The position numbers and the translations under genes were made by a program. From Blepharisma japonicum (lineage: Eukaryota > Ciliophora > Heterotrichea > Heterotrichida > Blepharismidae), in NCBI GenBank assembly GCA_949751835.1, contig CATKHK010000053.1, forward strand, positions 62,001-126,000: 64,000 nucleotides of DNA. Reading direction: 5' to 3'. Positions 39,261 through 63,000 of the stretch are shown in pieces (positions within the stretch are counted from its first letter, which is position 1; each line of letters begins with the position of its first letter). The notes under the pieces are model-generated. The model saw nothing but the letters and a program-made list of their open reading frames with translations. It made no database searches and was not told the DNA's origin.

Positions 39261-42200
39261 ATGATTTATAAAATGTTAAAGATGATCATTGCTTGGTTAA
39301 TTATAGCCTTTCTTAGCTGTCAAGTGATGGGATCAAATACTTTAAACTCAAGCTTGGACTCCGAGGTCCTATATGCTAGCGATAATTCTTCACCCAAAAA
39401 TAATTCGATTACTCAGAAATCACCTAAAGAAGAGATCGCTAGTAATGAAGACAGTAGAATTCGAAAAAATAATTGATCAGACAAAAAAAGAAGTTTGAGT
39501 GCATGTACAGATACAAATTGCATTAGCTGCCCTTCTGACCCAGCATGTGCTACATGTGCAAATTATTATGGAGTAAATTCAAACGGAGTATGCAAGGCGT
39601 GCACAGATACAACACATTGCAAAACCTGTGATGGATCAAACCCAGGCACTTGTACGACTTGTATTGATCATTATGGTCCTGATTCACTCGGAGCATGCCA
39701 GGCATGCACAGATGCAACAAATTGCAAAATCTGTGATGGATCAAGCCCAGGCACTTGTACGACTTGTATTAATCGTTATGGTCCTGATTCACTCGGAGCA
39801 TGCCAGGCGTGCACAGATACAACATATTGCAAAACCTGTGATGGATCAAACCCAGGCACTTGTACGACTTGTATTGATCATTATGGTCCTGATTCACTTG
39901 GAGCATGCCAGGCATGCACAGATACAACATATTGCATATCCTGTGATGGATCAAACCCAAGCACTTGCACTGTTTGCGATACAGGATATTACGTCAGTTC
40001 ATCCAATCTATGCACTGCTTGTCATATCAGTGGCTGCAGAAATTATTTAAAAATTACTTCTGGATCAGGCACTTATGAAGCTGGCATTAGTATATCGATA
40101 ACAGTCGAAAAATATACTTATAAGGACGCTCTTACATCTTCAGATACCAACAGCGTCTATCTCTTCTCAACAGATTCAACAGCAAATCTATTTGGGACTT
40201 TATCAATCGCTTATTCTTCTGTTTCCAGCAACTCTGCTTCTGTATTCATGACTAAAGTAAAATTAATATAGGCCGGGACTTTTACAATAGAAGCCCATTG
40301 CGATGGCTTTACCAAAGATTCAATAAGCATCACTATCACTCCTAAAACTACCTTTTCTTATATTGCATTTACAAGTCAGCCTTCAGATAATGCATGCACT
40401 GGTGTAGCTGTAACTGCTTACGATCAATATGGAAATGTGGCAACTTCAGCCTCTGGTACTATAACCCTTATTGCATATCCAACTACCTCAGGAAAAGTCG
40501 GGAAATTTAAGACTACTACAGTAACCGCATCTTTATCATCTGGAGTTGCTAGTTCTTGGACTAGCTGCAAAATTCTTGGAACTGACACATTATTTCAATT
40601 AGAAGCTTCTGGTTCATCAGGCAAAAATTGTGTCAGCAATACTTTTTCAGTCACCCAAGCTATAAAAACAGCCACTTTTACTACCACTTCCTTAACAGCC
40701 TCTCCTGGAGCAACTTTTACTCTATATGTATCAGTTACAGATACAGATAATGACGCTTATTTGGGTTCAGTTGCAGGGCTTTCTCTAATATATCATTCAG
40801 GGTCAGCATTATCAACAGCTACTTATACAAATCAAGGAAGCGGAACTTGGGCAGTTTCAGCTAGCATATCGACCCAAGGATCTTACTCTTTAGATATTAC
40901 GTGCACAGGCTGCGCAGCCTCATCTTCGGCTTCAGTGACAATTTCTAACGTAAATGCTATACTAATCAATTTCCCAACTTATATACACGAAGGAGCTACA
41001 TCTCAGACATACCAAATCAAATTGAGCGGAACAGCCCCTACTTCTGACGTAACCGTAAGCATCACTACAACAACATCATCAACAGAACTTACTGTGCAAA
41101 CAACAAGCCTTACTTTTACCAGTGGAAATTACAACACTTATCAATCTGTTACAATAAACCTTCCTTATTATTATACGTCTTCATTAGATTACTCTATTGT
41201 GCTATCTCACTCATTAACAAGCTCAGACAGCACATGGAGTGGCTCAAATATTATTTTTGATTCCAGCCAGTACCCTTCTGGATCAGCTACGTTGTATATA
41301 TATGACCAAGACCCTGTAGTCACAGTTGAAGACTCCGTTGTAGTTTCTCAAGGAGGAACCGCTACTTATCAGGTTTCTCTCAGTATGCAGCCAATAAACG
41401 ATGTACAAATCAGTGTAGCCAACTCTAATTCTGCTTATATAACCGTATCTCCAACATCAGTGACCTTCACATCGGCTTCATGGTCTTCACAGACCTTTAC
41501 AGTGAAATCTATAAGCTCCTCTTCCATTGTTGGCTCTACTTCTTATTCACTTACTTACACCTTAACCTCAACAGACTTAGCTTGGTCTAATGCAATAAAA
41601 ATGCCATCTACTTTTGAAACCATTGTGACTGTGATACAAAGCTCATATGGGACATTAAAAATCTCAAACAACTACTTAGATTTATCAAAATCACAGTCAG
41701 GGACATATACAGTTTGGCTCGGAAGTCAGCCCTCAAGTGATGTTACTGTAACAATTTCATCAGGAAATAGCAACGTTGGTGTTTCGCCTTCATCCTTAAC
41801 GTTTACTAATTCTAACTATGCAACTGCTCAAACAGTGACAGTAACTGTAAATAGTGCTCCTACCTCTATGACAAGTCTTTATTATACAGTTTCAATTTCT
41901 CATTCAACATCTTCTAGTGACAGCAATTATAGTGGCTTATCAGCTTCAACTACAGTTGATGTTGTAAACTTGTGTACGCCAGCTGCTTATGACTGGACAG
42001 CTTCTACTACAACTTGTTCAGTAACTATTACGAATTTTGATGTGTCAAGCGGAGTCCCAGTCCCTTGCTCTCCAGGATCTTATTATAGCTCAGGCTCATG
42101 TGTTGCATGCCCTATTGGCTACTACTGTCCTGACGGGATTAATGAGTATGCTTGCCCATCTGGCCATTATCAAACTCTTACAAGCCAGACATCTTGCACT

Positions 42201-45200
42201 AAAGTCGCTGAAGGCTACATCTTTGCATCTTCTTCTACATCCCCTACAGCTGTTTCCTCAGGCACATATTCTTTATCAGGCAGTTCTTCAGCAACTTCTT
42301 GCCTTGCAGGCGACATGTGCCCTCAAACTAACGTTCAAGAAGAGCTAAAATGCCCATTAGGCTCGTATTCCTCCTCAACTTCTCAGACTTCTTGTACTAC
42401 TTGTACAGCAGGAAGTTACTGCAATTATGTGTCCTCTCCAACGACATGTTCAGGAACCTACTATTCGCCTTCTGGGTATAATACATGTGAATCCTGTCCT
42501 TATAGTGCAGCTTGTAGTACTTATTCGATCTCTTTAGCAGTGGAAGGGAAATATATTTCTTCAAATACAGTCACTAATTGTCCTTCTAATGAAGTTTGTA
42601 GTGTAAGATTCAATTTCAACCCTTATACTTGTCCATCGGGGACTACTTATAATTCAAATACCTGCAAAGAATGTTCTACGTCAACTGGGTGCTGGACAAG
42701 TGGAACAAGTACATGTGCAACTCCTTCATACCCATGGGGCCCTGTATGCTTAACGTGTATGTTTCCGATGTTTGCGAGTGGTTCTAATTGCAAGACTACA
42801 GATCCTTCTAATAAATATACATCCACTACTAGCGAAACTGCCTGCTTACAAGGGACTTTTTCACCTGGAAGCTTTGATCTTTGTTATGGCTGCTCGCCTG
42901 GCTGCTTTTGCAACACAGGGGCTACAACTCCATTGGATAGCATGTCATCTTCTTCACAAGTTCTGAACCCTCTATCAACAACATCTACAAATTGTCCTAA
43001 GAGAACTTATAATGAAATATCAGGGATTATAGATGTTTCTATGTGCAAATTATGCCAGCCTGGATTTAGCTGTCCAGCTTATACTGATGCTATACCAGCA
43101 AGTGGACAATGTTCTAATGATGGAGGGACAGGGAGTCCTGCTCCTGTATGCATTACATCTAATAAAGGTCAGTTTTCACCCAACGGAGCGAGCGATACAG
43201 AAACTTTTAATTGTCCATTTGGGACCTATGCAGATGATATTGTTGCAAGGGCAACTGGGGCTAATTGCTATGCTTGTACGTCAGGGCAGCTCTGTCCAGA
43301 AGGAACAAATGCATCTCCTAGTTCAGCATCAGTAGGTCGCTTTTCTCAGGATTTTAAATCCGAAATCTTATGTCCTATGGGAACTTATAACAGCGCTTCA
43401 GGACAAACAAGCATTTCTAGTTGCACCACTTGCTCTATTTATACATTCTGCGGCAATGGATTTTCAACACCAGGTTTATGTTTTCTAGGATTTACAGCCA
43501 AAACTACATCATCTTTGTGCGAAGTCTGTGGGACTTCAAGTGCAGCTACAGTTTGTGCTGCTTCTAGTTCTGATCCATCAAACGCACTCTCATGCAGCGC
43601 AGGATATTTTTGTCCTATTGGGTCTTATACAGTTGACCAATATTCGTGCGATGCTGGATATTATAGCTCAGCTGCTACTGTTAGCCCTGTAAATCCTAGC
43701 CCTGCAAGTGCTGCAGATTGTTTAGAATGCACAGCAGGAACTTATTGTGCAGCCAAAAGTACAAGTGCGACAGGGGCTTCGTGCTCAGCTGGGTTTTACT
43801 GCCTTATTGGATCTCCTATGAATAATTATTTTGCGTGTCCTCCAGGATCCTTCTCATCGTCCACTTCAAATGTGGATAATACAGGCTGTGGCACATGCAC
43901 TAAAGGGAGTGCTTGCATGACAGGGTCAAGTGCTCTCAGTTCATGTGCAGCTGGGAGTTATTGTCCTGATGGCACAGAAAGGCCTGACCAATTTGCATGC
44001 CCAGCTGGAACCTATTCTTCAAGCACTAGTTTAAAACAAGATGCTGATTGCTCTTCAACATCGATAACTGGTGTTGGAGTATGTGAGGCTGGGTATTATT
44101 GTCCATCTGGGGCAACAAAAGAATATAAGTGCCCTCCTGGGACTTTTATGGCATCCACTGGTGCTGGAAGCCTGGCATCTTGCACCACTTGTACTGCAGG
44201 GTATTATTGCCCAGATCCTACGTCAGCTGTTAATACAGCAGCAAAGCCTTGCGGATTGGGCTACTATTGTAATGCAGGAGCCACAGCACCTCTTCAATGC
44301 CTTCCTGGATACGTCTGTTCTACTACTACAACATCTGGCTCAACAATGTATGCAACTCCTTGCACAGCAGGGTATTTATGCTCCTGGGGGACTTCTGTAG
44401 CAACTACAATACCATGCAATGCTGGCTATTACTGCCCAACTGGCACTTTGGTAGCTTATCCATGTCCACCAGGGACTTATATGGGTTCCACTGGTGCAAC
44501 CGCGCTTAGTGACTGTTCACAATCGTTGACAGGAACTTATATCGACACTTTTGCAAATACCGGAAGCGGGACTACATGTACAGCAGGCTACTATTGTCCT
44601 TCAGGTACTAGCGATCCTATTCCTTGTCCAGCAGGCACTTATAACCCATCAACTGGTAAATCACTCTCCACTGATTGCATAGTGTGCCCTGCTGGACAAT
44701 ACTGTCCATATGAAGGTACCTCAACTCCTACAAACTGTCTTGCTGGAAGATATTGCGTTAAAGGAACTATCACCCCAGTTAAATGTCCAGCAGGGACTTA
44801 CCATAAAAATAGCGGCTCTACTTATTTGACAGCTCTTGCTGATTGTACAAGCTGTGATGCAGGGTATTATTGTGATCAGCCAGGCAGCACTGCAACTGCA
44901 GGACAATGTAAAGCTGGATTTTTTTGTTCTGGAAAATCAATAACTGCTACTCCAGTTGGTCAGTCTTATGGTGATATTTGTCAAGCTGGATCATACTGCC
45001 CTTTAGGAACTGCCACTCTTCAACCTTGTCCAAGCGGAACATTCAATAACTACCAAGGCGCAACATCTTCTAGTGACTGTATTGACTGTCCTCAAGGTTT
45101 TTATTGCTCTAGCACAACTTCTGCATATCCTACTGGACAGTGCAGTGCTGGATATTTGTGCGGCACAAAAGAAACATCAAGTACCCCATCTGGGAAGCAA

Positions 45201-48200
45201 ACACCTGCGGGCACTTATGCACCAGCTGGAAGCTACGCCTCAATTAATTGCCCAAGAGGGACTTATAACTCAGCTGCTGGCCAAGGAAGCTGCCAAACAT
45301 GTGATGCAGGAGCTTATTGTCAAACTACTGGGCTATCTTCTACTACTACTTGCACTATAGGCCATTATTGCCCTTCAGGAACTATTGACCCAATACCATG
45401 CCCTCCTGGGACATTTAGAGCCACAACTGGAGCAACTCAATTATCAGACTGCACCCCATGCACAGCTGGATATTATTGTGCTGGCTATGGCTTATCAGCT
45501 GTAAGTGGCCAATGCAGTGCTGGGTATTTCTGTGAGCTAGCCTCACCATTCTACACACCTCCTTATCTTGTAGATACAACAACTGATAAATATGGTCCAT
45601 GTCCTGCAGGCTATTACTGTCCTCTTGGATCTACTTCTAGGAGTGCGAATCCATGCTTGGCAGGGACATTTAATCCTTCTACTTTAGGAGCATCAGCCAG
45701 TGACTGTATTCCTTGCACAGCTGGGAGAGCCTGCATCAACACTGCCAATGTAAATGACAACATAATTTGTAAGGTAAATTATTACTGCCCACAATCAAGC
45801 ACAACTGACCAAGCAACTCAATGCGAAGCTGGATACAGATGCCCAAGCGGCTCTGCAAATCATATTAAATGTGAACCTGGGACATATCAAAATTTAGCAG
45901 GTCAAGGATCTTGCAATCCCTGCACAGCAGGGTTATATTGTCCAAGAGTAACTTCTGATCCCACATCAAATACTTGTCCAGCAGGCCACTACTGCCCTGC
46001 AAGTACGCTTTATGATAAACAATACCCATGTTCTCCTGGGACCTATAGCACAGCAACCTCAGCTGTTGATAGCACCACCTGTGTAAGCTGCTCTCCTGGA
46101 AAATACTGTGACGTTTATGGCGTAGGTGACCTCACATCATTAAACTGTGCTGGTGGGTTTTATTGTTCTTCAGGCTCACTTTATTCGCAACCGATGACTG
46201 GCTCTACATATGGAGGAATTTGTACAAGAGGAACATATTGTCCTGCTGCATCTTCAGCAACTACTAACTGTGATCCAGGCTATTACTGCTCTCAAGACCA
46301 AATGTCTACATCAGGGTCTCAATGCACGGCAGGTTACTATTGCGTATCCAAGTCTGTTGCCCCAACCCCTGTCAATTCAGTAAACTCAGCCTTTTCTGCA
46401 GGAGATATATGCCCCAAAGGGTATTATTGTCCATTAGGGTCAAGCACCTATACAGCTTGCCCGATAGGGAAATACATGCCTTATAAAGGAGCTGAAGGTT
46501 CAAGTGAATGCATTGATTGCCCTCCAGGTTTCTATTGTGACAAAACTGGGACTTCATACCCTGTTACAACTTCTCCTGCAAACGCTCCAACTGCTTGTCC
46601 AGCCGGGTACTATTGTGCAGGTGGCGAATCTTCAGCCACTCCAAGTACGTACTGCAACGCTGGGTATTATTGTCCTCAAGGAAGCTGGGAACCAATTAAA
46701 TGCATTGATGGAGAGTATCAAGATCAGACAATGCAAAGTTCATGCCACACTTGCTCACCAGGGAAATACTGTGAATCTCCAGCTACTGCAGAAACTGATT
46801 GCCCAGCTGGACATTATTGTCCTAGTGGCACTGGCTATCGCTATACTTATCCATGCCCAGTAGGGACTTATAATCCAAATACAGGATCATCAACGTCAAG
46901 TGCCTGCCAAGTGTGTGATGCTGGTAAATATTGCGAGACTGCAGGGCTTTCAGCACCAACAAACAGCTGTGCTGCAGGATGGTACTGCACATCTGGAGCT
47001 GTTATAGACAGACCAGTTACTTCAAGCCAAGGCGCTATTTGCCCTAGAGGATCTTATTGCGCCTCTTCATCTGCGACATATACCGCTTGTACAGCTGGGT
47101 CATATTGCAACCAGCAAGGTCTTTCAGCTCCTGTTAGCACCTGCAATAAAGGTTACTGATGCGGCACAAGTTCAACTACAGCCGTACCTTTAGACGGCAC
47201 CCAAGGCAATATATGCAGTGCTGGAACCTACTGTGCAGCAGGAGCTACAGTAGAGACTGAATGTTTAGCAGGGACCATGAGTGTAAGCAAAGGACTTGAA
47301 TTATCAAGTGACTGCCCAAGCTGCCCATATGGAAAATACTGTGAAACAACAGGACTTACGGCAGTCACTGGAGATTGCACTGCTGGGTATTATTGTAATG
47401 GAGGTTCAAACATAGCTACCCAAAATAGCTGTACCATTGGGCATTATTGTGCAACAGGAAGCTTTGAACAAGTTTTGTGTGACATGGGTTATTATCAGCC
47501 TGCTGCTGTTCAGAGTTCTTGCATTCAGTGTACTTCTACTAATTACTGCTCTGGAGGAACAAATCAACCAACTGCTTGCCCCACAGGTCATTATTGTCCA
47601 GTAGGAACCAGATTTGATATTGAATATCCTTGCCCAGCTGGATATTTTGCATCATCAACTGGCCATTTAGCCTGTGACAACTGTCCTGTAGGCTATGTCT
47701 GCGATTATGGATCTACTTCTGCAAGCATTACCTGCCCAACCTATTCTTATTGTCCTCAAAATACAGGAGTTGCTCCTTTATGTCTGGCAGGTACTTATAA
47801 CTCTGCAACTACTGGCTTACAAAAATCATCTGACTGTACTTCTTGTCCAGCAGGCAGTTACTGCGTTGATGGCCGAATTTCTGACCAATGCGAGGCTGGC
47901 TACTTATGTGTATTAGCTTCTCCAACACCTACTCCAACTGGAAGCAATGCATATGGCTATCAATGCCCTTCAGGAAATTACTGTACCAAAGGGGCACTTA
48001 TTCCTACAGCTTGCCCATCAGGGCTATTTCGAACACTTGTCGGAGGCGCTCAGTCTAGTGATTGCACACAATGTCCTCCTGGGTCTTATTGTGTCAATGG
48101 AAATCCTAACCCAATTTCGTGTCCTATGGGATACTACTGTCCTCAAGGAGTCAATAAGCCAAAGCCATGCCCTACAAGAACTTATGGAAGCAAGGCTGGG

Positions 48201-51200
48201 GCTACAGATTTATCTGCTTGCTTAGCATGCCCAGGTGGCTACTTATGCACGAGAACTGGAACTGGAGATTATACACAGTACCCATGTGGAAAAGTAGGTT
48301 ATTATTGTGTAGTAGGTGCCACTGAGCCAACTCCTTGTCCTCCTGGAACTTATTCGTCTTCCACCACTGCTGCTTCTATAGATGACTGTATTGCGTGTCC
48401 AGGAGGATACTATTGTCCAGGAGCTTCCTCTTCTGTTATATCATGCGAAGCTGGCACTTATTGTCCTAAAGGTTCTCCTATATCTAAAGCGTGTCCTATT
48501 GGCTATTACTGCAAAGTAAATACTGCAACACCTACTCTTTGTCCAGCAGGGTATTACTGTCCTAAATATGACCAAAGCAATCTTGACCAATATCAAGACT
48601 CAGATGAACCTCCTGTATCTTGTCCTGATACTTACGTATGTCCATCAGGCTCTTTTGAACCTTTGCAATGCACTCAAGGGTACTATGTTTCTAGCAACAA
48701 ATGTGTGCTTTGTCCTGCAGGTACTTATTCAGATGGAACATTTTCTAAATGTAAGAGCTGCTTTGGCGGCTATGTTTGTGTGTCTGGAGCTTCACGACCA
48801 AATCCTATTTCTTTAGATTATCATGGAGGCTACGAATGTCCTGAAGGCTACTACTGTCCAGTTGGCTCTAAAACTCCTACAGCATGCCCAATTGCTACTT
48901 ATAACCCTACAACAGCTCAGACAAGCTATGATGCTTGCATTGATTGTCCTAAAAACACCTATGCAGATACTGTTGGCTCAGCTAAATGTACACCATGTGG
49001 CTCAAATGCTTACGCCGACGTAAAAAGCACTACATGTTTATGTTATGGTAAAAACCGTTCATACCGCAAGACTGATGGTAGCTGCGACTGCAACCCTAAT
49101 TATCATTACATACAGGATGGAATCACATCAAGCCAAGGTGACTCTGATATTGACTGCTTCAATATTGTATACGATTACTGTGGAGAAAGCGGTATAAGAG
49201 ACTCATATGGAAACTGTGTATCTACCTCAAGCTGTTCTTCTGAATGTAATGGTGGGTCTGGAAAAAGGATGAGCGGAGTTGGGCTCTGTGAATGTGATGG
49301 AACTACAACAATTGATGACATTTGCAATAAGAACTGCAGAGAAAATTCATTGAAAACAACTTATTCAAATGGAGCTTATACAGTTACTGATCCAAGCACT
49401 GGTGAAACAACAACTGTAGATTTGGTTAATAGCAGCGGATACTATGGAAAAACAAGCTGCTCTTCAAGCTCTTGCAATGTATATAGCATTGATATGACTA
49501 CAACTGGCCCATTAGGAGTATATGGATTAGGAAACAAACTAGGCTCACTTTATAGCAGTTCTACCTCAAGAAGATACCTGACTGAATCATCAACATCAGT
49601 CACAAATCCTACTATCTGTATACAAATAGAAGAAACCTTTGTATTTTCCATTCCAAATGCCCAAAACTACCCTGTTTACGTTAAAGATTCTTTATTAAAT
49701 ACAAATAATGCTTTTGATTATGGAGCATTCGAAGAGCTGAAACGTATGATTGAAAATCCGCTGAATAATATTACATCTTTCGCTTTTACTTTTACAGAGC
49801 AAGGAGTATACGATTTCAAAGATGCAGCTGACGATTCTATGCATATCATTATTTCAGTCATGGGGCAAGGCCAGCAATGCTTAGATCCAGACATCCCAAT
49901 TCGCCCACGCTTTAAGAGCTCAATGTTAACTATGGGCACACAGACCAAAACTAACATTATTCAAGATCCTAATTGGCCGTTTATTATTGGCACCGCTTGC
50001 TGGCTGGTTGGTCTTGTAGTTTTGTTGATATTAGGTATTTACTTCTTCCACAATAAATCATGGAAATATGTAGTAAAAGAAAGAAAAAGAGCTTATCGAG
50101 ATAAACAAAATGAATTAGATATTGCAATTTTGACAGAGAAACCGAAACAAGATTCAAGTGATGAAGAAAGCATGAAGGAAGTAAAAAGTGATGTCAGACT
50201 TGAGAAGAAAACAGTTATTAAGGAAGAGGAAAGCAGAGAGCCAATGATAAATGATGATATTGATCCTTCTATTTTCCAGGCAATGTATGATAGATTGGTT
50301 GAACAGGATAGCCAAGCAAAAGCTGCATTTATGCAAAAGACTGAAGCTGAGCAGGAAGCGATGAGACATTTATTGAATAATCTTGCTAAGCTAAAGAAAT
50401 ATCTTGAAGAGACTCTTGGAGGTCTGGATGATATAAGTGACAACGAGGAAGATGAAGCTGCACAGCTTCAGCTTAGTCCTGAAGAAGAAATGCAAAAAGT
50501 TATGAACGGGTTATTAAGCAAATACATCAAAGAAGCTGACTACAAGACAGAAGCTGGGAAAAACCTTCTTTATGACAATATTGTAAATAATCCTGAACTC
50601 AGTGAAAAAGATAAGCAAGACTTAATCGCAGACTTCAATGCAAATATTCAAAGAATTGAGCTAGCCCTCGACAATGAAAAATCAAAGTCTCAGGAATCCT
50701 TAAATAAAAGGCTTATGGAAAGAGCTGCCAAACGAAGGCAAAAGAATGCTGGAAGCCAAATAGACTCCCCATCAGAAATCGCAGAAACCTTAGATTTCAT
50801 TAAAAAAGATCCTGAGCTAGCCAAAGAATTCTTCGAAAAGAAAAAGGAGCTTGATGTCAAAACAAATAAGCAAATCAATTTAGAAGCTGGAAAGCTCAAA
50901 GAAGAATTAGATGCGAAACTTAAAACTGCCAAAAACAAAAAAGAAGCTGATAACTTTGTAAAAGAATATGATGAAAATGTACAAGAGCTTGAAAACAGAC
51001 TGAATGGAGATAAAAAGAGACAAGAAGCAGAGCTAGCAGCCAGACTAAGGGCAAGAAAAGATAAAAAGTTTAAAGAAGAAGTTGTAGCACCAAGACTTGA
51101 AAGAAGAATGACCTCGATAAAGCAGCCAGAAACCTCTCTGGTGCCTACTTTTTTCAAAGAAGAAGATCACGTCCATGTAGAGCAGCTCGAAAAGCGCCAA

Positions 51201-52781
51201 GAAGAGGAAATGCAAATATTATATGAAAAACAAGCTGAAGAATTCCAAGCTGTTGCAGATGAAGTTGAGAAAGAACTTCCAATAGACCGAGAAGACGAAA
51301 AATCCCGCTTAGAATCTGCTTTGAAATTGTCCACAAATGAAAACGAAAAGAAGCAGCTCCTCAAAGAGCTTGAACAATTCCAGCATCTTTCAGTTGCAGA
51401 TACCACTAATCAGCATTCTCAATTAGATTCAAGGCTCCAAGAACGAAAACGACTCCGTGCCTTAAAAGAAGCTGAACTAAAGAGAAAGCATGAAGATGAG
51501 CGTAAAGCAGTTGAAGACAAGCAAGAAAAAGAAGCTGAAAACTTGAAAGATGATTTGACGAGATTGAGGCTTGACGAACTTATGAGAAGTAATACAAGCC
51601 CAGAAGAAATCGCTAGAAAAATCAAAGACATGATGGACGACAAGCATGAAACTGAGCTTGCCGCACTTTCAGCCAAAAAGCAAGCCAAACTGACAGAAAA
51701 GCAAACTGAGCTCCTTCAGCTTGCCCTTTCCCAAAAAGCTGACGAAATTGCTGACATCCGAAACAAGTTCAACAGAAAACGCTCAGAAATAGAAAACTCA
51801 AGTCTTCCTATGAACAATAAAGTATCAGAGCTCGCCAAACTTGAGAAAAAAGAAGCGGATGCCATGACTATTGCTGACTATAATTTCATTAATAGCTTGA
51901 ATAAAGAACAAGACAAAGCTTGGAGAGAAGTCGAAAGCGAATTCCGTCAAAAACTTCTAGACCTCGCTGATAAGCATTTACAAGATACTTACAACATCCT
52001 CCAAAGCATGAGATCTGCAAATCCTGCATTGTTAGACCAACACCTCAGACAAGCCCAAAATGAAGCTAATAAATTAAGAGACCAAGCTGAAAATGAATAT
52101 GAAAATAAATTGAGGGAGTTAGATAACCGCCAAGCTCAATTAAACCAACTACAAGGCGAAAGAGAAAAAGAAATTTCTGCTTTGCAAAAAGAACTTGATG
52201 ACGCTGACGCCAAGAAGCGAGAACTCGCTGAAATGGACAGAAGACGACAAGAAATGGCTGACCGTCAAAAACAAATGATTGAAGAAATGAAAAGAAGAGG
52301 AATTTCTCCTGAACAAATGGAAGAAATGATCAAGAAACACCAACAAGAAACCAGCGAATGGGAAGCTGCAATGGAAAGAGAAAGGCAGAGACAGCGAGAA
52401 AGAATGCAGGAGAAACTTAATATGAAATCAGCCAAACATCAACAAATGATAGAAGCACAAATCGCGAAATATAAAGAAGACAACATGAAAATGATGCAAA
52501 ATAAAGAAGACGAAAAATTGAGCATTAAATATCCCATTGATAAACCATTGAAATTATATGAGCCAATGTGGGATATTCAGACCAAGCTCAGAATTAGTCC
52601 TTTACCAGTTTATAAGAGAAATCCAGTTAAGGCTTATGCCGACTCTTCTGCGACTTTGCAATCGCTCTTAGTGAGAGTGAAAAGAGTAGAAAAAATCGTG
52701 GAAAATGTCGATGCGAATCAGTTTGAAAATATGATGAAGGCAATGGAGCATGTTTCCGAGATGATTGAAAAGCTTAACTAA
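39261..52781 (+). CDS. Giant receptor-like membrane protein, about 4,501 aa
   Basis: One gene with a 15-nt intron (40257-40271, GTAAAATTAATATAG) and TGA as Trp at 39474-39476 and 47157-47159. Signal peptide at 1-25, with MLKMIIAWLIIAFLS at its core. Next come short Cys repeats in a 105-bp tandem, then Ig-like and three Calx-beta-like domains (to about residue 900). A long run of GCC2/GCC3, or ephrin-receptor-like, repeats follows (CPAGTYxxxxG, CxAGYYCPxGT), about 45-55 units by spacing (42060-49020). A Cys-rich stalk and one membrane span near residues 3570-3595 (ACWLVGLVVLLILGIYF) come next. The tail is about 900 residues of charged coiled coil. Probably a surface protein anchored to the cortex by the tail. 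Splitting at the TGA or the intron gives false genes. Confidence 0.85.
39597..40016 (+). repeat. Four-unit 105-bp tandem repeat inside the giant gene
   Basis: Units begin at 39597, 39702, 39807 and 39912 and are nearly identical. Each encodes 35 residues with the pattern CTDTTxCKTCDGSNPGTC and then CIDHYGPDSLGAC. The last unit diverges at its end. The similarity at DNA level implies recent unequal exchange or gene conversion within this part of the gene. Confidence 0.9.
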
Positions 52782-60097: not shown

Positions 60098-63000
60098 TTA
60101 AAAAAAATTGAACTTCAAAAAAGGATTTATTTTTGACATTGAATCAATTGATCTTGTAAGTTTGGTATGATTAAACTGATTTCTAATTTTATTACCTTTT
60201 TCAATAATAATTGTAGGATTATCTTCCTCAAGCCCTTCTTCTATTTCTTTCCAGCATCCTTCAATAAAGCTCATCACTCCTCCAACACCTCCCATTAACC
60301 CAAAAATAGATCCCAATAGCACACTCAACAAAGTTAATCAAGTTTGTCCTTGTTTCCTTGTGGTAACAAGTCCGTTTAAGCCATTATTAAACTGAAGATT
60401 CAAATACAAATTATAAGCAAGTCCCATTCTAAATAGTATTTACTCATAAGTATGAAATTGTGAGCCATAATCTGGGCTTTGCTCTACAGAAATATGATAT
60501 CCTGTGTAAGATCTATCTTTGTGGGATTCCTGGAATCACTACAGTAAGGTTTACAGAAGGAATTGACGCAAAATGCACTGTGGTTGGTTTAAAGCCAAGA
60601 AAAACATAGCCTGGATTTGGAAGTATAATAGTACGATAGCTGCTTACCTCGTCAGGGATTGATGAGGTAGAATTAACTTGTATAATAAACCCTGAAGTAA
60701 ACGCGTTTGTATATACCATTTCATAAGAGATTTCTCCTTGGCTTTGTATTTGGCAGTTTTTGCATTTGATTATTACGTTACAATCTCTGTTATTTAATTC
60801 ACAACTCATTTCGGACCAATTTCCGTCTATGTTGCTAAATGAAATGTGGATTTCAGAGGAGCAAGCATGATTGACTAAACAGTTCCCCCCGTAATTAATA
60901 AAAGTAGTTGAAACCACAAAATCTCCTGTATACTAAATAATAATTACCTTGGATATATCTTGAGAAAGCACAACAAGAGGAACCAAGCTTTTTTGCTCTG
61001 TAATATTGTCTAATTTAAAAGTGATTATACTATCAGAAACCAATATAATTGCTAAAATTACAAAAATAATCGAAAAGAATCCTCCTATTTTTGTTTTCGT
61101 CAAAATCATCGAAACATCCATCAAATGATTGTGGTTTGAGGTATATATATCAATTCTTGATAAAATTGACATAAAAAACATCAAAATGCATATAATCAAG
61201 ACACATCCAAATAATCCAAACGTTAAATTTACAATAAGAATAGTTTTGTCGAGTTTGTCTTGATCAGCTTTATATAAAGGAGGCTGGATAGACAAGTCAG
61301 TGAGTGAAAAGACCTCTCTTTCAAAAGTAATGCTGCCTGCCTTACATTCTGCAGAGTGAGGGCAATTTAGACAAAGGGGAGCACCTTCAATCGAATTATA
61401 AGTTCCTTCCTCACATGGATAGCATAGAACTCTTGATGCAGAGCCATAAATTTGGTTGAAAAATCCTTCCAAACAATTAGTACATGCAGAATTTCCATAA
61501 CTATCAGAATAAGTTCCAGGAGGGCATAATAAGCATTCATTATTGTGCTTATAAGTTCCTGGACTGCATTCCCAATAGCAGCTTTCTATATCGTCGCAGT
61601 CACTTTGTAAATGAATCCTAAAAAACTTATTTGAAGGTACTTCATATCTTAAAAGTTCTCCTAAGACTGTTGCTCCTCCATGAATATAAATGTGATCCTT
61701 CAAATAGCAGGAAGCAAAGCCAAAAGTATAGTCAGGAATTTGACCTATTTTAACAAATTCAGTTGTGGTCAAGTTAACGTAAAAAATATCCTTACTAAGG
61801 TACCTTCCAAACATATTCCCTCCAAAGACTAAAATCCTGTCATCTAATTTTAAAGCACCTGCTTTGCTTCTAATTCACTGCAAATTATTAGAATTGTAAT
61901 AAATTGTTTTCCAAGTTTTGCTTGTTAAATTATAGCTAAAAATTTCATTAGATGAATTTTCTCCATCATATTCTCCGTAATATATATAAAATAAATTGTT
62001 TACAATTTTGCATGAGGCATAATACAAAGCTCCTGGCCCTTGTGGATTACTTGAGTCAAGAAGAGTATAAGTATTTTTGCTTATGTCGAGTAGTCACAAT
62101 TCATCAGAAGGGCCAGAAGCTGTCATGCCTCCATATAAAATAATTAGTGACTCTATAGCTGCTAAACAAGCTCCTTCTCTTGGACTTGGAGGCGAGGTTG
62201 GGTTTTGCACAAAATACCATTGTGAAGTGCCAATATGGAACATATACAAATCATTCAAATATCCTGAATTTCCATGCCCACCTCAGACTGCTATAACTCC
62301 TGAGTTTTCAGCTGAAGCAAATCCATACCTTGGTGATGGTGCATTTCCTGCAGCTTCAATGCTTTTCCATTTCTCATTAATTGTATCATAAGCTCAAAAA
62401 TCATTAAATAATTCTCCACTTTCTCCTAAGCCTCCAAACAAGTAAAGTTTTTCGCCTATTGGATGCATAGTATGAAGCATTCGGGCGCTTGGAGATAGAT
62501 TTTCATCATAATACCCATATTGAGTTGGCGGAGATACAGATAAATCAAATATTCAAAAAGCATTGTGAAAGCCTTCTTCTTTAAAGCCAGCAAAAATATA
62601 AAGTTTTGATTCAAATAGTGTAAATCCGTAATCATTGTTTGATAAATTGACTTCATCTATTTTGTATCAATTATGATTTGTATCAGATAGATTTATTTTA
62701 TATCATTCAGAATTTTGGTCATTTAATTTCATTGATCAGCCAGATAGCATATAGAGATGAGTGCTAAAAATAATGCAGCCATGCAAATATCTGCTTGTAT
62801 ATGTTTTTGAAGAAGAGATATTGACTCATGCTGAAAGATCTAAATCGTATTTATAAAATCCATCAATATATGGATTTACTTCTAAAGGAGCTTGTCCTCC
62901 TGCAATATATAAGGCTTTGTTGTAATAAGCCATGCAAGGACTTTCTAATTTTGGAGGTATGTCGCCGTTACTTGGCATCATTGTTCACACCCAGCTGCCT

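Follow-up and report, generated by a model that had tools for sequence, protein, structure and literature searches.

Mst1, the mastigoneme protein of Chlamydomonas reinhardtii, is built from nine immunoglobulin (Ig)-like domains followed by a single 26-nm cysteine-rich domain (residues 1,176-1,853, about 678 amino acids), which mediates dimerisation (PMC11015965). Such tandem Ig-like domains ahead of a cysteine-rich domain are restricted to C. reinhardtii and C. incerta (PMC11015965). The Mst1 chain of 1,987 residues ends in a proline helix, and its presence on cilia depends on two further proteins: mastigonemes are missing from Chlamydomonas cilia without PKD2 or SIP (PMC10846610). Here, we describe a gene of the ciliate Blepharisma japonicum that lies at 39261-52781 of a 64,000-nucleotide stretch of DNA (the “window”; contig C53, positions 62001-126000) and encodes a protein of 4,501 residues. 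By its sequence profile, the cysteine-rich rod of this protein is homologous to the cysteine-rich class of Mst1, and the rod is predicted to continue, within the same chain, through a membrane span into a long coiled-coil tail. The first-pass annotation of the window had treated the gene as a lone one, which was not borne out, as it is one of seven paralogs in the same genome.

Judging from the translated sequence, the protein is very probably laid out as a signal-like N-terminus, a cysteine-rich cap, about six Ig-like domains, a cysteine ladder of 2,390 residues, a membrane-proximal domain, one membrane span and a tail. The features and their positions in the window are:

39261-40256 (+): exon 1, amino acids 1-332 (translation with TGA as tryptophan); signal-like N-terminus and linker, then the N-terminal cysteine-rich cap and a portion of the first Ig-like domain
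39546-39965 (+): tandem 105-bp (35-residue) repeat region in the N-terminal cap (repeat finding; seven-way alignment)
40029-41972 (+): Ig-like head, amino acids 257-899, about six domains by inspection, crossing the intron (AlphaFold, Foldseek, alignment)
40257-40271 (+): predicted 15-nucleotide GT-AG intron GTAAAATTAATATAG, holding the sole in-frame TAG (40269-40271)
40272-52781 (+): exon 2, amino acids 333-4501 and the stop codon TAA (translation)
41976-49145 (+): cysteine ladder of Ephrin_rec_like repeats, amino acids 901-3290 (PF07699, invariant cysteine columns, Mst1 profile match)
49146-49967 (+): membrane-proximal ectodomain, amino acids 3291-3564, of which the C-terminal 85 residues or so are possibly cupredoxin-like (AlphaFold, Foldseek)
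49968-50063 (+): single transmembrane span, amino acids 3565-3596 (hydropathy)
50064-52778 (+): tail, predicted to be cytoplasmic, without cysteine, amino acids 3597-4501 (coiled-coil prediction, cysteine count, alignments)
52506-52778 (+): C-terminal module of the tail, amino acids 4411-4501 (alignment of seven)

The link to Mst1 comes from a profile of the ladder (amino acids 2000-3290 of the window protein and the same stretch of its six paralogs), which was run against all PDB sequences. Mst1 of C. reinhardtii is the only sequence found at E<=0.1 (E 1.5e-11), and the other 12 matches up to E 10, none of them better than E 2.5, are to calcium-sensing receptors. The high composition bias of the ladder prompted controls on the two best Mst1 stretches: the forward profile scored 58.3 bits, the reversed profile -45.9, and the shuffled profiles were negative in 20 of 20 cases with the cysteines held fixed and in 20 of 20 with full column shuffling. 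Like Mst1 (PDB 8tx1, 8wa2, 9b4h), the window protein places tandem Ig-like domains before a long cysteine-rich domain of the growth factor receptor type, the likeness in the Ig-like part being one of fold only, seen when the AlphaFold model of the head was searched with Foldseek. It differs from Mst1 in its longer ladder, the additional membrane-proximal domain, its own membrane span and the coiled-coil tail of about 905 residues; conversely, a proline-rich helix was found in none of the seven proteins (maximum 7-8 prolines per 30 residues, longest proline run 2-4). Scaled by length on Mst1, the ladder would form a rod of about 90 nm. The idea that the protein is a cell-surface filament thus gains support from the match to a mastigoneme protein, but filament formation is not implied by the repeat class alone. 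The first-pass annotation also called the protein receptor-like and named adhesion and recognition as conceivable roles, all of them hypothetical.

Within the ladder, 68 C..G..C motifs were counted. When the window protein was scanned in six pieces, the Pfam family Ephrin_rec_like (PF07699) reached 26.0 bits in one of them (cut-off 23.1) and a sub-cut-off 20.4 bits in another, next to a sub-threshold match to TNFR_ELAPOR1; in the ladder alignment, all seven members matched PF07699 at E < 0.001 (window member, 27.2 bits). We take Ephrin_rec_like repeats to be of the type also called GCC2/GCC3. Although the repeats score above the PF07699 cut-off, this family denotes a repeat class and not a function, and an ephrin receptor kinase was rejected as a candidate, as no kinase domain was found by Pfam in the regions scanned (the window tail, all seven tails and the ladder). 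Hydropathy exceeds 1.6 in the window protein only at the N-terminus (19-mers starting at amino acids 1-10) and in 19-mers starting at amino acids 3566-3577, and one span besides the N-terminus is seen at this threshold in each of the seven proteins. The cysteines are divided accordingly between the two sides of the span: 296 fall in the 3,564-residue ectodomain versus none in the tail, and over the seven proteins the totals are 1,884 in ectodomains versus 10 in tails, as expected if the former face an oxidising outside and the latter a reducing inside. The tail comprises 904-906 residues, depending on the boundary chosen, and a COILS-type script predicts coiled coil for 526 of them in eight segments. 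Dozens of GCC2/GCC3 repeats, one membrane span and a coiled-coil tail of about 900 residues had all been proposed in the first-pass annotation, and each of them agrees with these data.

Searches of the 45.2-Mb genome revealed a family of at least seven genes with the same order of parts, namely the window gene (C53; 4,501 residues) and the paralogs C35 (3,662), C42 (3,869), C128 (4,248), C36 (4,256), C44 (4,143) and C38 (4,087); these searches score the best candidates only, and further distant members are possible. The membrane-proximal domain as query returned exactly seven loci (E<=0.01) and the Ig-like head likewise seven (E<=1e-4). With the window tail, the gene itself and C35, C128, C36, C42 and C44 were recovered at E<=1e-5, C38 being missed; the tail of C128 also found six loci without C38, while those of C36 and C44 each recovered all seven. 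The ladder query (E<=1e-8) detected the seven loci and two weaker ones, C65:72445-73026 (+) and C8:49722-50705 (-), which carry ladder-like repeats and were unmatched by the tail and membrane-proximal queries. These two are possibly related giants with different C-termini.

Conservation is uneven along the protein. In all seven members the ladder stays in register, with a length of 2,325-2,390 residues and 215 cysteine columns that are invariant in seven of seven sequences; 226 such columns are obtained when the membrane-proximal domain is included. Identity to the window gene amounts to 37-55% in the ladder, 38-58% in the membrane-proximal domain and 21-48% in the tail, where the C-terminal module stands out with a mean pairwise identity of 36% versus 29% for the remainder, C44 and C38 aligning over only 49 and 48 residues of it. 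By inspection of the alignment, the head varies in size, with one Ig-like domain in C35, two in C42 and about six in the others. The cysteine-rich cap with tandem 105-bp repeats is confined to the window gene, no counterpart being present in the other six paralogs in the seven-way alignment. These repeats comprise three overlapping 210-nucleotide copies, which are spaced by 105 nucleotides and 86-88% identical to the first, as well as three 114-nucleotide units with pairwise identities of 94-95%. They look like the youngest part of the family and could vary in length from strain to strain. Arrays of tandem repeats commonly acquire and drop units; the constant length and register of the ladder suggest that the length of the rod, or each of its rungs, matters, and the variable tip suggests different partners among the paralogs.

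The rod and the tail are, on the evidence of sequence trees, inherited together as one gene, because the trees of ladder and tail share their topology, which is also that of the membrane-proximal domain: C53 groups with C35, then with C128, opposite the pairs (C36, C42) and (C44, C38). Support values are 95-100, apart from a value of 50 on a single inner branch in the tree of the membrane-proximal domain. The tail and the membrane-proximal ectodomain occur together at seven of seven loci, and this co-occurrence, along with the agreement of the ladder and tail trees, makes separate transcripts for the ectodomain and the tail unlikely. The non-synonymous substitution rate (dN) is lower than the synonymous rate (dS) in the four regions of all three close pairs tested, dS being high or saturated. 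A chance origin of the open frame is excluded, as judged from the sequences, because near-unbroken frames are present in the six diverged paralogs and dN is below dS in these close pairs.

Once the 15-nucleotide intron is removed and TGA is read as tryptophan, exons 39261-40256 and 40272-52781 give 4,501 residues with no stop left. In the raw frame 39261-52781, read with the same code, the TAG at 40269-40271 is the single internal stop; under the standard code, the frame would further be broken at TGA 39474 and TGA 47157. The description of an unbroken frame over 13.5 kb, given in the first-pass annotation, is therefore correct after removal of the intron but not for the raw frame, and the count of 4,501 residues for a single gene, which proved right, already presupposes the intron. 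Both the intron GTAAAATTAATATAG and the code are predictions. TGA probably specifies tryptophan, because TGA codons align with TGG codons of paralogs: in a codon alignment, the seven genes together have 50 TGA codons, 19 of which stand opposite TGG in one paralog or more, and the TGA at codon 3298 of C44 is matched by TGG in all six others. The use of the two tryptophan codons is very uneven among the paralogs, ranging from 1 TGA and 20 TGG in C128 to 18 TGA and 22 TGG in C38. Six introns are predicted in the seven genes, five of 15 nucleotides and one of 16; four of the six paralogs require introns of 15 or 16 nucleotides near the 5' end, and none is needed in C35 and C42. For Blepharisma stoltei, the genome report gives UGA as a tryptophan codon, introns of mostly 15 and 16 bp and a genome of 41 Mbp (PMC9942806). 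An antisense open reading frame of 431 residues at 50570-51865 (-) overlaps the coiled-coil tail and is probably a by-product of the codon pattern of the tail.

The first-pass annotation had described the head as Ig/Calx-beta-like. The AlphaFold model of residues 553-930 (mean predicted local distance difference test, pLDDT, 74) matches many Ig-like proteins in Foldseek, with proteins of the axonemal central apparatus at the top, the tandem Calx-beta pair CBD12 of NCX1 (3us9) at rank 18 and Mst1 (8wa2_C) at rank 46. The match of the head model to CBD12 has an E of 7.7e-9, a target-normalised template modelling score of 0.58 and a root-mean-square deviation of 6.2, but many unrelated Ig-like proteins match as well, and 17 of these outrank 3us9, including axonemal proteins, alpha-2-macroglobulin and a contactin. 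By sequence, no Pfam family was assigned with confidence to the head (none at E<=0.01 in the two pieces that bear it), the nine weak families that the seven members' last Ig-like domain reached at E<=1 do not include Calx-beta, and a head profile run against PDB sequences gave only four weak matches, to clathrin and DotD, the best of them at E 0.19. A Calx-beta assignment by sequence was dropped for lack of a Pfam match in the head pieces or the last Ig-like domain; the model supports a fold that is Ig-like, not specifically Calx-beta.

The membrane-proximal domain was modelled with a mean pLDDT of 55, with blocks of 62-85 across model residues 181-260. Its best Foldseek matches are stellacyanin (E 7.2e-3) and plastocyanin (1.6e-2), none being found at E<=0.001, and the best 50 of 457 matches are mostly cupredoxins or what we take to be multicopper-type relatives. 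The C-terminal 85 residues or so are thus possibly cupredoxin-like. Type 1 copper ligands of cupredoxins are His, Cys, His and Met; a copper site appears unlikely from the seven-member alignments because no His or Met of the domain is invariant in them. By sequence, the domain gave two unconvincing single-member matches in Pfam (E 0.067 and 0.078) and none at E<=1 in the PDB. In IMG/VR and prokaryote contigs, 133 and 70 pattern matches were obtained, none of which was confirmed by tblastn; these collections are viral and prokaryotic only, and the result carries no weight for other ciliates. The window tail gave no Pfam match at E<=0.01.

The surroundings of the gene offer no obvious functional link. 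Ten open reading frames at 26920-62990 of the window were searched against Pfam, of which four remained unmatched and the others encode a serine carboxypeptidase, an NYD-SP28 (sperm tail) protein, a TPR protein, an adenosine deaminase, a PHR domain protein and a Kelch protein. This Kelch-repeat gene (60936-62990, (-)) carries one Ephrin_rec_like repeat itself, and the strand on which it lies bears more Ephrin_rec_like matches further along C53, at about 127-145 kb. Similar clusters of such matches lie on C117, C33, C28 and C7.

We see roughly even chances for a linker role, in which a single-pass protein forms a stiff rod and its coiled coil links this rod to the cytoskeleton of the cortex or the cilia. 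Its topology, dimerisation, rod length, cytoskeletal coupling and location we infer from sequence features. As a type I membrane protein, it would pass its N-terminal 3,560 residues or so into the secretory lumen, and these would end up outside the membrane. There, a few Ig-like domains would form the tip of a long rod held by disulfide bonds, and a possibly cupredoxin-like stalk beside the membrane would carry the rod. The C-terminal 900 residues or so would be cytoplasmic, probably dimerising as an interrupted coiled coil that ends in the conserved module, and probably bind a cytoplasmic structure. An extension of the tail into the cortex, as proposed earlier, would follow only from this topology and the coiled-coil prediction. 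In effect, a surface rod of constrained length may tie an outside object to the cortical or ciliary cytoskeleton, with the outside contact made either through the variable Ig tip, in which the seven paralogs differ most, or through side-by-side packing of cysteine rods as in Mst1. With 0.15 nm per residue for the rise of a helix, the predicted coiled coil of the tail would extend about 80 nm, and at most about 135 nm if the tail were wholly helical. A bolder reading, a transmembrane ruler that combines a cysteine-registered rod of 2,325-2,390 residues with a coiled coil of like reach and would fix the distance spanned inside as well as outside the membrane, or else a membrane-anchored mastigoneme rooted directly in the cytoskeleton, we consider doubtful.

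Several observations weigh against the linker role or the evidence used for it. The weight table of the COILS-type script was entered by hand, the seven tails have no relatives in the PDB at E<=0.001, and their only Pfam matches are two unrelated and unconvincing single-member ones (E 0.011 and 0.021). The N-terminal hydrophobic stretch exceeds 1.6 in five of the seven proteins and is weaker in C36 (1.36) and C38 (1.19), and lowering the threshold to 1.3 brings up additional short stretches in C35, C42, C128, C36 and C38. The cupredoxin call depends on a Foldseek E of 7.2e-3 and a model with a mean pLDDT of 55. As to Mst1, the two stretches used in the controls had been selected by their match, a choice that benefits the forward profile, and single-sequence ladder searches of the PDB miss Mst1 both at E<=1e-5 and at E<=1, where the sole match is an unrelated binding protein (0.6). 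The genome contains at least 87 Ephrin_rec_like matches, so that the match to Mst1, being to a repeat class shared with other proteins, does not on its own imply a filament. Mst1 is also held via its PKD2-SIP partners and has no such tail, so that anchoring would differ here. Finally, a lumenal site, in a granule or vacuole, fits the predicted topology equally well.

The linker role and its rivals are not mutually exclusive, and the likelihoods given to them overlap. A membrane-anchored mastigoneme would be a special case, in which ladders polymerise side by side, like Mst1, into visible ciliary or cortical hairs, and the tail takes the place of PKD2-SIP as the anchor and roots these hairs in the axoneme or the cortex. 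The ladder's homology to the cysteine-rich domain of Mst1, which is its only PDB match at E<=0.1, fits such a hair, as does the order of Ig-like domains and cysteine rod, the same as in Mst1; the genome also contains PKD channel genes (13 matches at E<=1e-10), which are not specific. Yet the proline-rich helix is missing (no 30-residue stretch of the seven proteins holds more than 7-8 prolines, and no proline run exceeds 4). A single span in each subunit and a coiled coil that is presumably parallel sit awkwardly with the antiparallel dimers described for Mst1, and hairs of this kind on heterotrich cilia are not reported among the literature matches listed. To our knowledge, no self-anchored surface hair is known from this lineage. 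On balance, this reading is unlikely. If the ectodomain instead sensed a contact stimulus and the tail signalled to docked extrusomes, which in Blepharisma are pigment granules, the family would act in regulated secretion in the manner of cysteine repeat modular proteins (CRMPs), a possibility that we regard as decidedly unlikely. CRMPs of ciliates and apicomplexans (Tetrahymena, Toxoplasma, Plasmodium) are alveolate membrane proteins with cysteine-rich repeats, including ephrin-receptor-like modules, that act in exocytosis (PMC9670195; PMC9815656), and a large cysteine-rich ectodomain (here 296 cysteines in 3,564 residues) is a trait common to many families. CRMPs are predicted to have several C-terminal spans, five in Tetrahymena and nine in Toxoplasma and Plasmodium (PMC9670195), whereas the present family has one and a long tail. 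Membership in the CRMPs was rejected on this span number, as each of the seven proteins has one span besides the N-terminus at 1.6. A coiled coil alone is not distinctive of the present family, since a figure legend mentions coiled-coil segments drawn for some CRMPs (PMC9815656). Mdl1 of the Tetrahymena mucocyst complex was considered and dropped: it is a small LamG protein, and gcc2, ephrin and coiled-coil are absent from the main text of the source (PMC9159632).

The variability of the tip, in Ig-like domain number and cap repeats, would also suit adhesion in mating or cell pairing, with the ectodomains of two cells pairing in trans during conjugation. The Tetrahymena mating-type proteins MTA and MTB (161 and 194 kD) likewise combine cysteine repeats, of the furin-like kind, with transmembrane helices, but no long coiled-coil tail is mentioned in the available part of the source (PMC3608545). 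Against a mating role, which seems to us very unlikely, stand the divergence of the seven paralogs and the finding of dN < dS in each of three pairs tested. Placed inside the cell, the cysteine ladder would face the lumen of a granule or vacuole, with the coiled coil serving as a golgin-like cytosolic tether. The topology and the long cytoplasmic coiled coil accommodate this organelle protein just as well, but a rod of about 90 nm inside a vesicle would, in our judgement, be unusual, and we hold the proposal to be no less improbable than adhesion. That two neighbouring genes were misread as one is extremely improbable: no stop separates the two parts within exon 2, the parts stay together at all seven loci, and rod and tail have an identical tree topology. 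The claim of the first-pass annotation that ectodomain and coiled coil form one gene stands on this co-occurrence and topology.

Among the literature matches listed, mostly without subscription papers, we found no description of the window protein, nor any paper on GCC2 and GCC3 in ciliates. If the proposed linker or ruler is correct, a rod of the mastigoneme type on the outside and a long coiled coil on the inside would be joined in one chain, in a ciliate. Such one-chain anchoring would contrast with Chlamydomonas, which needs PKD2 and SIP to keep mastigonemes on its cilia. The ladder would then also offer a natural example of repeats whose array is held at constant length, and the seven proteins would be candidates for surface-to-cortex coupling in large single cells. 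Should their function turn out to be more ordinary, they would still give the annotation of such genomes a well-defined group of seven very large genes.

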